Source of the DNA: Peptoniphilus phoceensis
GTDB lineage: Bacteria > Bacillota > Clostridia > Tissierellales > Peptoniphilaceae
Reading direction: 5' to 3'
Assembly: GCF_001517665.2 (NCBI RefSeq)
Contig: NZ_LN999807.1
Span: 23,788 to 87,787, forward strand
Length of the DNA stretch: 64,000 bases
Notes under the pieces: model-generated
Database searches by the model: none
Told to the model about the DNA's origin: nothing
The model's input: the letters and a program-made list of their open reading frames with translations, nothing else
Position numbers and translations under genes: made by a program
Shown here: positions 50,136 to 55,316 of the stretch, piece by piece
Layout of the letters: every line of letters starts with the position of its first letter
Position numbering within the stretch: the first letter of the stretch is position 1

Positions 50136-50768
50136 CTAATAAATTATTTTTCCTTCTCTTGTTGGAAGTTCAATTTCTTCTAAGTCTTCTTTTTCAAAAT
50201 TTGCACTAGTTAAATCTCTTATTTTGTCTAAAATAGATTTGTCCTCGCCAATATCAATAGTGATTTCAACCTTGTCTGTGTAATTTTCTTCTATGATTTT
50301 AAAATTTTCATTGGCAAGAAGATTTACAAGAGCACCATGAAAGGTGTAATCGTATATTATTTTTGTCCTTGTAAAATTTTTTCTAACTACTCTTTTAGCT
50401 GCATCAAGAGCCTTTACAACTGCATCGGTGTAGGCACGCACAAGTCCTCCTGCACCAAGCTTTGTTCCACCAAAATAACGAGTCACTATGACAAGGACGT
50501 TCCTCATCTCTTCTTTCTTTAAGACTTCAAGCATAGGAACTCCAGCTGTTCCAGATGGTTCTCCATCATCAGAATATCTTTGAGTTAGTCCATCTTCTCC
50601 AATGATATAGGCGTGACAATTGTGAGTTGCAGACCTCTCTTCTTCTTTTACTCTATCAAGAATATCAAGGGCTTCTTCTTCATTTTTTACAAAAAAAGCA
50701 CGTCCTATAAAAATAGATTTTTTTATTTCAATTTCAGCTTTAGAATTTTTTAAAATCGAATTATACAT
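50136..50768 (-). CDS. YigZ/IMPACT family protein
   Basis: 210 residues. The N-terminal UPF0029 domain contains EERSATHNCHAYIIG near 45 and SDDGEPSGTAGVPML near 70, followed by YFGGTKLGAGGLVRAY near 105; a DUF1949 C-terminal ferredoxin-like domain starts near 140. Family members are thought to act in translation control; the bacterial role is unclear. It overlaps hflX by eight bases. Confidence 0.92.
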   Translation of the reverse strand: MYNSILKNSKAEIEIKKSIFIGRAFFVKNEEEALDILDRVKEEERSATHNCHAYIIGEDGLTQRYSDDGEPSGTAGVPMLEVLKKEEMRNVLVIVTRYFGGTKLGAGGLVRAYTDAVVKALDAAKRVVRKNFTRTKIIYDYTFHGALVNLLANENFKIIEENYTDKVEITIDIGEDKSILDKIRDLTSANFEKEDLEEIELPTREGKIIY

Positions 50769-52050
50769 TTACAATGTAATCCTTTACTTTTTCATATTCG
50801 CTCTCTTGAAGTCTAAGGTCTAAATAAATTCCATCATCTTCATACATAGGTTTTGCATCAAATTTTTCCACCAATTTGTAGAGAAAATCTGTGTCGTCAT
50901 AGGCAAATTTTAATTTCACATCAAAATATTTTTCTTCAAGATTATCTTCTATGATTTTTAAAAGTGCATCCATGTTTTCATCTTTTTTTGCAGAAATATA
51001 AACTTTTTTATCTGGAAGAACTTTTAAAGGTAAATTTATATCATACAAATTGACCTTGTCTACCTTGTTAAAGACAGTGATAATATTTTTGTCCAAGACA
51101 TCAATATCTTTTAAAATTGACATTGTAGTTTTGTACTGAATTTCTAAATCTTCACTTGATGCGTCTATTACATGAAGAATTAAATCAGAATATTTTATCT
51201 CCTCAAGAGTTGATTTAAATGCCTCGACGATTTTAGTTGGAAGTTTTGAAACAAATCCAACAGTATCAGAAATTATAAACTCACGACCAGATAATAGTCT
51301 TGCCTTTCTTGAAGAGGGGTCAAGAGTTTCAAAGAGCATATTTTTTACAGAAACTTCTCCTGAATCTTCTTCCTTTAACCTATTTAAAATAGTGGACTTG
51401 CCTGCATTTGTATAACCAACAAGTGATACAATGGGAATATTATTATTTATCCTCTTGTTTCTCGTTGTATCTCTAGTCTTTTTTGCCTTTTCAAGTTTTT
51501 CCTTAATCTTGTCGATTTCTCTTTTTAACCTTCTCCTATCAGTTTCAATGATTTGTTCACCTGGTCCTCTTGTACCAATTCCACCACCAGTTCTTGACCA
51601 ACCATCTATGCCAAGAAGTCTAGGAAGTTGATACTCAAGTCTTGCAAGTTCAACTTGGAGTTTCGCCTCATAAGTAGTGGCACGAAGGCCAAAAATATCT
51701 AAAATTAAATTTGTCCTGTCAATTACCTTTTTCTTTATTCTCTTTTCCAAGTTTCTCACTTGAATACCAGATAGCTCATCATTAAAGACAACAGCATCAA
51801 CTTCTAAAAGTTTTACCATTTCTTTAATTTCATCAACCTTACCTGATCCAATTAAATATTTTGGATTAAACTTATAAAGATTTTGTGTGACTTCACCCAC
51901 AACTTCTGCCCCATCTGCATATACAAGCTCTGATAACTCCTTCATAGAAGTTTCCAAGCTGTGAGGGTAAGCTCCGAGGTTTGTTCCTACAATTATAACT
52001 CTCTCTAATTTTTTATTTGAATTTAAATTCTCTAAATAAACATTATCCAT
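50761..52050 (-). CDS. hflX: GTPase HflX
   Basis: 429 residues. The HflX N-terminal domain (1-180) ends with GLRATTYEAKLQVELARLEYQLPRL and GGIGTRGPGEQ, then a coiled coil (about 180-205), then the G domain with GYTNAGKST near 214, DTVGFVSKLP and NKVDKV. HflX splits 70S ribosomes after stress. No ribosome binding site lies upstream of the ATG, and a consensus -10 ends six bases before it, so the transcript may be leaderless. It heads the hflX-yigZ-nadE unit. Confidence 0.94.
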   Translation of the reverse strand: MDNVYLENLNSNKKLERVIIVGTNLGAYPHSLETSMKELSELVYADGAEVVGEVTQNLYKFNPKYLIGSGKVDEIKEMVKLLEVDAVVFNDELSGIQVRNLEKRIKKKVIDRTNLILDIFGLRATTYEAKLQVELARLEYQLPRLLGIDGWSRTGGGIGTRGPGEQIIETDRRRLKREIDKIKEKLEKAKKTRDTTRNKRINNNIPIVSLVGYTNAGKSTILNRLKEEDSGEVSVKNMLFETLDPSSRKARLLSGREFIISDTVGFVSKLPTKIVEAFKSTLEEIKYSDLILHVIDASSEDLEIQYKTTMSILKDIDVLDKNIITVFNKVDKVNLYDINLPLKVLPDKKVYISAKKDENMDALLKIIEDNLEEKYFDVKLKFAYDDTDFLYKLVEKFDAKPMYEDDGIYLDLRLQESEYEKVKDYIVNV

Positions 52051-52062: not shown

Positions 52063-52141
52063 CTACATAATGATGGGATAAAAAAACTCACATAATAGTA
52101 TTTAGCTTATTAAAATGTTATAATTGTACAAAGGAGAAAGT

Positions 52142-55021
52142 ATGAAAAACTTAGGAGAATTAAAAAGAAATATTAAAAATTTAGACAAGAAAGACAAAAT
52201 AAAAATCTGGCTTTTAATTTTACTATTGATTTTTGTTTTATTAATTTCATTTTTTTCTGCACTTATTATTTCAATAATTTCAAAAACTCCTGCCACAGAC
52301 TTAAATAATTTGAGCTCGTCTTTTAATCAAAGCTCCTATATTTATTCTAAGGATGGAAATTTAATCGAAAAAATTGAATCTCTTGAGTACAGAAGTCTTA
52401 TTGACATTGACGATATACCAGAGGATATAAAAAATTCTTTTGTCGCCATTGAAGACCACAGATTTTATAAACACAAGGGACTAGATCCCATTGGAATTAT
52501 GTCTTCAATTGCTGCAAATATAAAATCAAGATCCCTTATGCGTGGTGGATCTACAATTACTCAACAGCTAGTCCGTTCTGTATATCTTACAAATCAAAAA
52601 ACTCTTGGTAGAAAAATCCAAGAAGCTTATTTATCCCTTCGAGTTGAAGAAGCTTTAAGTAAAGAAGAAATCTTAGAAGCTTATTTAAACAGAATTAATT
52701 TAGGTCAAGGATCCTACGGAATTGAAGCAGCTGCTCAAACTTATTTTTCTAAAAGTGCAGTTGATTTAAATATTGCAGAAGCAGCACTTCTTGCATCAAT
52801 TCCAAAATCTCCAGCAAATTATTCACCTTTTAAGTCAGTTCCTGCTGAATATCTTGAAGATGATTTTAGAGTAATAGGAACTCGTGAAGTTGATGGAAAA
52901 GACCTCTACATGGTCTTAAATGATGATGCTTTCAAAAGACAAAAAACCGTTTTAATGAGAATGCATGAACTTGGCTACATTGACGACGCTCAATATGAAA
53001 GAGCAAAAAACTATGACATTGTGAGTGCTCTTAATCCTCGCAATTTCAAAAACCACACCATGTCTAGCTACTCAACAGACTACATAAAAAAAGAAGCTTC
53101 AAAGTATCTTGCTGATTTTTATAAGATAAGTCTTGATGAGGGTGAACACAAACTCTTTACTGGTGGCTACAAGGTTTACTCTACTATTGATGAAGAAATG
53201 CAAAAAGATTTAGAAGATAAATATGAAAATTTTCAAAATCTTCTTTTAAATTATTCTGCTTCTTCTGGTTCAAGAATGCTGGGCTTAAATTTCGATGAAT
53301 CTAATAATATTATCTTTGGAGATGAAATTTTATATTTTGAAAAAAATAATATTTTAGATGAGAAATTTAATTTAGTTATTCCAAAGTCTGCCTACAATAT
53401 ATCATCTCATGGCGACCTCAAAATTAGAAGTTCCTACTTTAAAGACACTGGTCAAAAAATTGATATAATTGATGCTTATAATCTTTTCGATGACAAAATT
53501 TTGCGAACTTATGAGATTGGTGGACTAAAAATTGAAGATGGTGCAGCTGAACTTAAAAATAAATATTTAATTATTGACGGGCATTATTTAAAGAACTATC
53601 CAGATTTTTATAAAATCGAAAATGATAATTTAATAATTTCAAATAAATATTTTGACTATAATAAGGAGCCTGTAATTCAACCTCAATCTGCCATGATTTC
53701 TGTAGATAATGAAAGTGGTTTTGTGGATGCAATAATTGGCGGCTTAGATGTTAGGACAAAAAATGCAAAGATTTTAAATCGTGCTACTGACTCTTATAGA
53801 CAAGCAGGATCTGCCCTCACACCTTTTTCTGTCTACCTTCCAGCACTTGAATCTGGAAAAAAATTATCTGATGTCTACGATGATGTACCAATGACTGTTG
53901 ACGGAAACTTTTGGCCACAAAATTATTATAATTCCTTTAAGGGTCTTATGACTTTAAGACTGGCTATGGAAAATTCTTCCAATGTCATTGCAGCAAAAGT
54001 TCTTCAAGAAATTGGCAAGGAAAATGCTATAGACGTTTTGAAAAAATTTGATGTGATTGATGAAAATAATGATGATTATTTTATCACTGCAAAGGATAAT
54101 AAAAAGAAAAATGATGAAAATTTAGAATCACTTGCTCTTGGAAATATGCAAGTTGGTTTAAGATTATCTGACTTATCAAAGATGTATCAAACTATTGCCA
54201 ATGACGGATTATACAAAGAGGAAACAGCAATTTTAAAAATTGAAGATCCCAGTGGAAATATAATTATAGACAATTCAAATAAAAACAAGAGACTCTTTGA
54301 CGAAAAGAGTTCCCATCTTTTAAAAGATGTTTTTATAAAAAATACTGATCGTGGAAATGCCAAGAATGTTCGCATAGGATCATCCGAAACTGCAGGATAT
54401 CTTGGACAAAATAAAACTAATTCAGATTATTTTGTAAATGCTTTTACTAAGTCTCACACAGTTTCTTTTTGGATTGGTGCTGATTCTCCAAAGATTTCTC
54501 TTGCAGCTGATAAATCTGCAGCCATTGATATCTTTAACAAGATGTCTAAAAATTTAGCTACCAAAGAAAACTTTGACGAAGATCCATCTTATATTGTGAC
54601 AAGATCTATTTCATCAAAGAGTGGAAAGCTTGCCACAAAAATGAGCGACTATGCTGGAGCATCATACAAGGAAAAATTTATTTCTGGAACTGAACCAAAG
54701 GATCATGACGATTTATTTAAAAAGTATTTAATTTGCAAAGACTCAAATAAACTTGCAAACCAATATTGTCCAAGTGAATCTGTCCTATACACTGTTCTCT
54801 TTGAGAGAAAAGAAGGATACGATGCAAAAGACCATTTTGGAATTTATCCCGATGACTACATGACCATTCCAAAGTCCTACTGCAATATCCACACAAGAGA
54901 ATGGTATAATGAAAATGGAATGGATGACGAGGATGAGGATGAAGATAATAATTCTTCAAAGAAAAAAGAATCTAAAAAATCTTCAGATAAAATAAAGAAA
55001 ACAAGTAAAAATAAAAATTAA
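52142..55021 (+). CDS. Class A PBP-like glycosyltransferase with degenerate transpeptidase domain
   Basis: 959 residues from the ATG at 52142, behind AAAGGAG; the frame from 52124 has no ribosome binding site. One membrane segment at about 20-45. GT51 glycosyltransferase domain: IEDHRFYKHKG with catalytic Glu104, RGGSTITQQL, RKIQEAYLSLRVE and EILEAYLNRI. The later half aligns to a PBP transpeptidase, but the SxxK motif reads SALT (Ser557-Thr560), the second motif SSN (612-614) is kept, and KTG reads ETA (749-751). It would polymerise glycan strands without cross-linking. The C-terminus is acidic (DDEDEDED), then Lys/Ser-rich. An Arg-rich small gene follows. Confidence 0.9.
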   Translation: MKNLGELKRNIKNLDKKDKIKIWLLILLLIFVLLISFFSALIISIISKTPATDLNNLSSSFNQSSYIYSKDGNLIEKIESLEYRSLIDIDDIPEDIKNSFVAIEDHRFYKHKGLDPIGIMSSIAANIKSRSLMRGGSTITQQLVRSVYLTNQKTLGRKIQEAYLSLRVEEALSKEEILEAYLNRINLGQGSYGIEAAAQTYFSKSAVDLNIAEAALLASIPKSPANYSPFKSVPAEYLEDDFRVIGTREVDGKDLYMVLNDDAFKRQKTVLMRMHELGYIDDAQYERAKNYDIVSALNPRNFKNHTMSSYSTDYIKKEASKYLADFYKISLDEGEHKLFTGGYKVYSTIDEEMQKDLEDKYENFQNLLLNYSASSGSRMLGLNFDESNNIIFGDEILYFEKNNILDEKFNLVIPKSAYNISSHGDLKIRSSYFKDTGQKIDIIDAYNLFDDKILRTYEIGGLKIEDGAAELKNKYLIIDGHYLKNYPDFYKIENDNLIISNKYFDYNKEPVIQPQSAMISVDNESGFVDAIIGGLDVRTKNAKILNRATDSYRQAGSALTPFSVYLPALESGKKLSDVYDDVPMTVDGNFWPQNYYNSFKGLMTLRLAMENSSNVIAAKVLQEIGKENAIDVLKKFDVIDENNDDYFITAKDNKKKNDENLESLALGNMQVGLRLSDLSKMYQTIANDGLYKEETAILKIEDPSGNIIIDNSNKNKRLFDEKSSHLLKDVFIKNTDRGNAKNVRIGSSETAGYLGQNKTNSDYFVNAFTKSHTVSFWIGADSPKISLAADKSAAIDIFNKMSKNLATKENFDEDPSYIVTRSISSKSGKLATKMSDYAGASYKEKFISGTEPKDHDDLFKKYLICKDSNKLANQYCPSESVLYTVLFERKEGYDAKDHFGIYPDDYMTIPKSYCNIHTREWYNENGMDDEDEDEDNNSSKKKESKKSSDKIKKTSKNKN

Positions 55022-55041: not shown

Positions 55042-55233
55042 ATGAAAAAATTAGCTAGTTTAATTAAATTAATTGCATTTTTTAAAGTTATAAGACCTAT
55101 AAGAATTAGAAAGAGAAGAAGAAGGAGGAAGTTAAGACTTTTATCTTTACTAAATCCAAAAAGGGCTGGAAAAGTTGCTTTTCACGCTGGCAAAATAAGA
55201 ATGAGAAACGAAATAAAAAGATTGTTGTACTAA
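55042..55233 (+). CDS. Arg/Lys-rich mini-protein (63 residues)
   Basis: AAGGAGGAAAT precedes the ATG at 55042, 20 bases after the PBP-like gene. About 23 of 63 residues are Lys or Arg and only one is acidic (Glu57); residues 21-30 read RIRKRRRRRK. The first 17 residues are hydrophobic with lysines (LASLIKLIAFFKVI), a possible amphipathic or weak membrane segment. It has no recognised family. A terminator follows at 55279. It could bind the acidic tail of the PBP-like protein, nucleic acid or wall polymers; this is speculation. Confidence 0.7.
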   Translation: MKKLASLIKLIAFFKVIRPIRIRKRRRRRKLRLLSLLNPKRAGKVAFHAGKIRMRNEIKRLLY

Positions 55234-55278
55234 GTAAATAATTTATTTTAAAATTAATTAAATATTTTAAGAATTAAA

Positions 55279-55316
55279 AAAGATAGCCTGTCTACTTTGA
55301 CAAGCTATCTTTTCTT
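55279..55316. terminator. Bidirectional terminator
   Basis: Stem AAAGATAGC (55279-55287) / GCTATCTTT (55304-55312), A tract before and T tract after. Serves the plus-strand mini-protein gene and the minus-strand macrodomain gene. Confidence 0.85.

Follow-up and report, generated by a model that had tools for sequence, protein, structure and literature searches.

Whether a class A penicillin-binding protein (PBP) needs both of its activities in one protein, and whether its transpeptidase domain has a role beyond chemistry, are questions usually approached with laboratory point mutants. Among the closest described systems is PBP1 of C. difficile, a class A PBP and division synthase with an insertion associated with its glycosyltransferase (GT) domain (PMC12539705). 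In laboratory mutants of this protein, septum synthesis reportedly depends on GT activity, while division, unlike growth, can do without transpeptidase activity (PMC12539705, PMC12154710); because division remained possible when the transpeptidase was mutated, a transpeptidase-dead class A PBP can, on these accounts, run septum synthesis in C. difficile. The FtsI-type class B PBPs of B. subtilis and S. aureus, whose catalysis is dispensable, likewise combine a protein of transpeptidase type with a non-catalytic role while others cross-link (PMC12154710). In those proteins the activity was removed in the laboratory, whereas in the gene described here, at 52142..55021 of a 64,000-nucleotide stretch of the Peptoniphilus phoceensis genome (the window), the site has been lost in nature, and from a class A protein. 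It would be a natural version of the transpeptidase-dead C. difficile PBP1, in a different class A PBP. Searches of an open full-text library, from which subscription papers are mostly absent, listed no paper on a naturally transpeptidase-dead class A PBP.

By its predicted architecture the window protein is a class A PBP, and its motifs read as those of a protein that is not bifunctional. The features that bear on this are as follows.

52142..55021, forward strand: class A PBP-like gene of the native long type, 959 amino acids, with an intact GT51 domain and a degenerate, putatively dead transpeptidase domain
52131..52140, forward strand: ribosome-binding site AAGGAGAAAG, of the AAGGAG type, before the ATG start of the PBP gene (direct reading)
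52355..52843, forward strand: GT51 transglycosylase domain, residues 72-234, with E104 and E161 retained (Pfam and alignment)
53729..54418, forward strand: transpeptidase domain, residues 530-759, with degenerate active-site motifs (Pfam and alignment)
53810..53821, forward strand: SALT at the SxxK position, residues 557-560 (alignment)
53975..53983, forward strand: SSN, the retained SxN motif, residues 612-614 (alignment)
54398..54406, forward strand: YLG at the KTG position, residues 753-755 (alignment)

Both domains score above their Pfam cut-offs, Transgly at 6.5e-60 over residues 72-234 and the C-terminal Transpeptidase at 1.9e-17 (63.8 bits against a cut-off of 22.1) over residues 530-759, and a hydrophobic stretch, judged by eye, lies at about residues 22-47. 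In the GT51 domain E104 and E161 are the residues that we take to be catalytic. A preliminary description of the gene had placed Glu104 in IEDHRFYKHKG, had pointed to an intact GGSTITQQL, and had read SALT in place of SxxK beside a surviving SxN; all four readings hold in the alignment. It had also read ETA at the KTG motif. The loss of the lysine and the threonine stands, but ETA (749-751) lies four residues away from the motif, since AGKTGTT of intact relatives aligns opposite AGYLGQN, which places Y753-L754-G755 at the KTG position. Of the three motifs expected in a bifunctional class A PBP the protein therefore keeps SxN, as SSN, while SALT replaces SxxK and YLG replaces KTG. The proposal that transpeptidase chemistry has been lost while the GT site is intact is supported at the level of sequence. 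PDB entry 7u4h, a class A PBP of the PBP1A family, is a solved orthologue with the same architecture and GT residues and 33-35% identity to the window protein, but it has STMK and KTG where the window protein has SALT and YLG; its sequence matches locus L120, of genus g21, almost letter for letter.

Against TIGR02074 (PBP_1a_fam, cut-off 508.75) the window protein reaches 444.3 bits, and the intact second class A PBP of the same genome, at 484.7, also falls below; four intact orthologues fall on both sides (502.0 and 490.9 below, 521.9 and 517.7 above). Because intact proteins miss the model too, the shortfall was dropped as a mark of transpeptidase loss. Against TIGR02070, for monofunctional glycosyltransferases, the window protein scores 135.2 bits with a cut-off of 182.65, and its transpeptidase domain is present, so it does not belong with that group.

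The distribution of the degenerate form was surveyed in 61 genomes and then in 109 genomes of the family at least 90% complete, from 35 genera, with the seven catalytic letters read from one alignment. The table of 109 comprises 108 of the 109 genomes of the second search and G022 (81% complete, from the first). G082, which has no GT match, and G023 (81% complete, one weak match) are omitted from the counts, as are the separate 256-residue GT L094 of G029, the 535-residue fragment L095, and the named records L007 and L008; G092, whose gene lies in two frames, is taken as intact. A long gene with a dead transpeptidase occurs beside a second class A PBP in 34 of the 109 genomes (10 genera). In three genomes of genus g14 the same locus is reduced to 267-300 codons of GT alone (L069, L165, L166), again with the second PBP, and three of genus g5 have lost the native long gene and hold the second PBP alone. 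In the remaining 69 genomes (24 genera) the long gene is intact, reading S,K,S,N,K,T,G, and there is no second class A PBP. The second, intact enzyme is thus present in 40/40 genomes whose native gene is dead, GT-only or absent and in 0/69 of those where it is intact, and none of the 109 genomes holds both enzymes intact. Outside the family, the seven letters are S,K,S,N,K,T,G in 23 of 24 class A or GT51 sequences from the same order, the exception being a 535-residue fragment, and in 26 of 26 sequences in a class-wide set which is biased, consisting of best matches to the intact second PBP; G039 and G258 in the latter are from the same order, and G039 is counted in both sets. The omitted G082 (genus g24), although listed as 99% complete, has no GT51 match and shows only a partial match within a very long open frame, which may reflect a gap or a masked stretch. 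G029 holds the additional 256-codon GT (L094), on a very long branch, besides its dead PBP and its second class A PBP.

Monofunctional glycosyltransferases are known under the names MGT, MtgA and SgtB. The window protein would be expected to work as they do, polymerising without cross-linking, but it differs from them in keeping a conserved full-length transpeptidase domain; true reduction to the GT domain is seen in g14. The g14 frames represent a natural route from a bifunctional PBP to a monofunctional glycosyltransferase.

Within Peptoniphilus, neither lysine at 753 nor threonine at 754 occurs in any of 13 genomes, and in 11 of the 13 the SxxK lysine is replaced by threonine. The nearest named relatives are P. 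timonensis (96% identity) and P. vaginalis (85%). The P. vaginalis record has SALT and YLG; so does that of P. timonensis, where the letters are divided between two reading-frame pieces. The latter orthologue (strain JC401, L007) is split into frames of 643 and 299 codons, by either a strain defect or a sequencing error. A sequencing or assembly error behind the degenerate transpeptidase of the window gene is rejected, as all 13 congeneric genomes and the named records agree. The preliminary description had considered that homologues of 98% identity bearing SxxK and KTG would expose such an error or a strain mutation; none was found, and the nearest named relative, at 96%, carries SALT and YLG. 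It had also proposed asking whether SALT and ETA are conserved in relatives; the defect is common to them, with YLG being what stands at the KTG position. The serine and the SxN motif said to remain do so in the window protein, but only in part across the clade, where the SxxK serine is found in 19/34 dead proteins and the SxN asparagine in 19/34.

Gene neighbourhood and a tree of GT columns mark the window gene as the family's native class A PBP, of the long type. The neighbourhood is anchored by one gene.

50761..52050, reverse strand: GTPase gene, presumably hflX, divergent neighbour of the PBP gene and synteny anchor

This neighbour adjoins the long gene in 6/6 transpeptidase-dead genomes tested (G000, G013, G014, G020, G029 and G036), the GT-only gene in 3/3, and the intact long gene in one of two, being paired with it in G035 and on a different contig in G125. 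All three g5 genomes retain the hflX block, with no PBP beside it. The tree was built by a quick method from 93 sequences with the transpeptidase columns excluded, genus g24 and the same-order outgroup being represented by a few sequences each. It places the dead and GT-only proteins in one clade (Shimodaira-Hasegawa-like approximate likelihood ratio, SH-aLRT, 99), which also contains the unrelated-looking GT L094 on its very long branch.

On this tree the least number of changes is one for the KTG lysine, three for the KTG threonine (serine allowed), four for the SxxK serine, three for the SxxK lysine, and four and three for the SxN serine and asparagine. All 34 dead proteins lack the KTG lysine and the KTG threonine (serine occupies the threonine position in five) while all 34 retain the glycine. 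The SxxK serine and lysine both persist in seven of the 34 (four in g9, one in g20, two in g25), six of which also have the SxN asparagine. Given a single loss of the KTG lysine, three to four changes at the other positions, and the persistence of SxxK in g9, g20 and g25, the KTG lysine was probably lost first, and once, and the SxxK and SxN motifs would have decayed later in several lineages.

The remainder of the transpeptidase domain has fared differently from its active site. In column comparisons of 34 dead against 55 intact sequences (47 of them from the family), sampled as for the GT tree, the seven catalytic transpeptidase columns are kept at 0-0.40 in the dead proteins (genus-weighted), whereas 26 other invariant transpeptidase columns, among which the KTG glycine is counted, average 0.82 (Mann-Whitney p 2e-4). 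For the 43 conserved GT columns mean retention is 0.93; E104 is present in all 32 dead proteins that hold its column (two of the 34 being cut by contig ends) and E161 in 34/34. In the 13 Peptoniphilus genomes G556, P561, S612-S613-N614, Y753, G755 and N757 are identical. With most residues of the transpeptidase fold conserved, the earlier view that the fold is probably kept appears sound. The ratio of nonsynonymous to synonymous change (omega) was estimated within Peptoniphilus by pairwise Nei-Gojobori comparison, using pairs with synonymous divergence (dS) under 1.2: 15 of 55 pairs for the long gene, from the 11 of 13 genomes in which it is not cut by a contig end, and 33 of 78 for the second class A PBP. 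Median omega is 0.137 for the dead transpeptidase and 0.074 for its own GT half, compared with 0.062 and 0.042 for the transpeptidase and GT halves of the second PBP. The dead transpeptidase domain of Peptoniphilus is maintained by purifying selection, with some relaxation.

The genome of P. phoceensis itself (a 1.74 Mb assembly, 99% complete) holds two class A PBPs, the window protein and, on a separate contig, a frame of 815 codons that has SSIK, SSN and KTG.

Contig C11, L207, 8587-11025, reverse strand: second class A PBP, near genes that, from the look of their sequences, we take to be bioY, coaX, dus, tilS, hpt and ftsH

This second enzyme reads SKSNKTG in all 40 genomes that have it. 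The spacing from the catalytic Glu to the catalytic Ser is 346-364 in the 40 (349 in P. phoceensis), while long-type proteins have 445-462 (453 for the window protein). An insertion follows the GT domain in both copies aligned. In these respects the second enzyme resembles C. difficile PBP1, for which the sources give catalytic residues E137 and S487, hence a spacing of 350 (PMC12154710), and a 66-residue insertion that is also described in Peptoniphilaceae (PMC12539705). The window protein does not, and its candidacy as the C. difficile PBP1 orthologue was dropped in favour of the second PBP, which fits better by spacing and insertion.

In a class-wide search of 146 genomes the best matches of the second PBP outside the family came from three genomes of one other family and align through the insertion. 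A fourth genome, G160, does so too, while many of the other matches listed break at about residues 230-296. The three other-family proteins group with the second PBPs in a tree (SH-aLRT 96), with G160 placed elsewhere. A clade of second and long-type PBPs is rejected by the approximately unbiased test (p 5.6e-57, on a quick tree), so that the second PBP is not a duplicate made within the family, and transfer from another lineage would be the simplest reading. Further candidates for cross-linking are also at hand. Beside the second PBP, the genome encodes two class B PBPs, two YkuD matches and two SEDS proteins, one of which sits with a class B PBP in a presumed division and cell-wall cluster. 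A Peptoniphilus-derived gene cluster is reported in Trichomonas vaginalis, where the neighbours of the PBP include PP-loop, Hpt, FtsH, BioY and Dus genes (PMC4082486). Similar-looking genes surround the second class A PBP, so that identification of the transferred PBP with the dead one is unsupported, and the gene is probably the intact second enzyme.

On this evidence the window protein is reasonably likely to be a glycan polymerase that carries a pseudo-transpeptidase domain and leaves cross-linking to other enzymes. It would still polymerise lipid II into glycan strands, and would not be acylable by donor peptide or by beta-lactam. The dead domain may be kept for structure or docking, without catalysis of its own, positioning or regulating the GT half. 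Other enzymes would cross-link the strands in trans, namely the second class A PBP, the class B PBPs and perhaps L,D-transpeptidases of the YkuD type. The arrival of the second PBP may have removed the need for native transpeptidase activity, and that it made the loss possible is plausible.

Several points weigh against this reading. The association between transpeptidase loss and the second PBP rests on a single clade and so amounts to one event, not to replicates, and either order of the two would fit the present data. G051, from another family of the same order, has an intact long PBP together with a second intact class A PBP lacking the insertion, so a second copy does not always bring loss of the transpeptidase, and several same-order genomes carry extra short GTs beside long genes that are intact where read. 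R535 and Y632, conserved non-catalytic transpeptidase residues of intact relatives, are kept at 0.00 in the dead proteins. Constraint on the dead domain is relaxed about twofold relative to its own GT half, and two genera have lost the domain or the entire gene. An AlphaFold2 model of the window protein from a five-sequence alignment was too poor to be used (mean predicted local distance difference test score, pLDDT, 39.2).

Some of these points are also what slow decay would leave behind, that is, a native gene made redundant by the second class A PBP, in which the dead domain has no special role and is a stage toward truncation or loss. This is possible, if unlikely. It accounts for the GT-only frames in 3/3 g14 genomes and the absence of the gene from the same locus in 3/3 g5 genomes, for motif letters that vary between genera, for an omega about twice that of the GT half, and for the loss of R535 and Y632 from every dead protein; it sits poorly with an omega (0.14, in Peptoniphilus only) that is far from neutral, with the upkeep of the 26 invariant non-catalytic columns, with the persistence of the full-length form in 34 genomes of 10 genera, and with the constancy throughout Peptoniphilus of the residues listed above, in and around the motif positions. 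Quite improbable is a second alternative, in which weak or altered acyl transfer or beta-lactam binding remains, at least in the SxxK-bearing g9, g20 and g25. The seven proteins with both SxxK residues, the SSN of all 13 Peptoniphilus and the five proteins with serine for the KTG threonine lend it something, but the KTG lysine and threonine are missing throughout, the SxxK lysine is absent from 11 of the 13 Peptoniphilus, and transpeptidation without these residues is unlikely on general grounds of PBP catalysis. That neither half is active and the protein is a pure scaffold or regulator is very improbable, for although C. difficile PBP3 reportedly has a non-catalytic role in wall synthesis (PMC12539705), every GT motif residue examined is intact, substitution is slower in the GT half than in the transpeptidase half, and one genus has retained the GT half alone.

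Two further features lie immediately downstream of the PBP gene.

55042..55233, forward strand: small, very basic protein of 63 amino acids with its own AAGGAGG site, starting 20 bases past the PBP stop (frame search and profile)
55278..55313, no strand assigned: strong hairpin followed by a T-rich tail, a likely terminator (-20.3 kcal/mol for a 58-base stretch, z score -6.3)

The hairpin was missed by a consensus scan, and a consensus scan for promoters was uninformative, with 28 found where 17.5 were expected. The small protein has a net charge of +22, and the window copy has no match in Pfam or NCBIfam. A small basic frame was flagged just downstream of 32 of the 34 dead genes (31 if that of G013 is discounted as spurious), the genes without one being those of G020 and G095, and downstream of 3/3 GT-only genes. 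Of the 60 intact genes whose flank reaches 250 bases or more, four have such a frame, one of them with a stretch like a ribosome site; 31 further intact genes have too short a flank for this search. A profile of 16 of the small proteins matched 22 of the 40 clade genomes at E values up to 1e-5, namely the 16 that supplied it and six new ones, including two of g5, with no match at that level in the other 69 genomes; weaker matches in G031, G029 and G120 look spurious. The median omega in Peptoniphilus (0.17, from 50 of 55 pairs, with G001 and G007 omitted) supports a real gene, which it probably is. A profile comparison of small-protein groups A2 and A3 gave no convincing homology (probability 3.6%), so kinship beyond A2 rests on position, size and charge.

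The idea that the small basic protein serves the dead PBP alone is weakened by the 3/3 g5 genomes, which have such a gene beside hflX and no PBP (the profile recognises two of these, while in G016 the gene is assigned on its position, size and charge). As the gene survives without the PBP, its function is not tied to the dead PBP alone, and the protein may act on wall synthesis more widely, or elsewhere, such as at the ribosome. A broader, tentative possibility, which we consider clearly less likely than not, is a rebuilding of peptidoglycan synthesis across the whole clade, in which cross-linking passed to an enzyme of the C. difficile PBP1 type, the native PBP turned into a polymerase indifferent to beta-lactams, with its pseudo-transpeptidase serving regulation or peptide docking, and the small basic protein, specific to this lineage, takes part in the control of wall synthesis.

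For the family, these genes form a graded natural series within one protein lineage, from bifunctional, through full-length with a dead transpeptidase, to GT-only and finally lost, and in the sampled genomes the second enzyme is found exactly from the point at which the series starts. They provide candidates for biochemistry on a naturally transpeptidase-dead polymerase, and predict that these human-associated cocci would possess a polymerase which is inhibited by moenomycin and is not labelled by penicillin.

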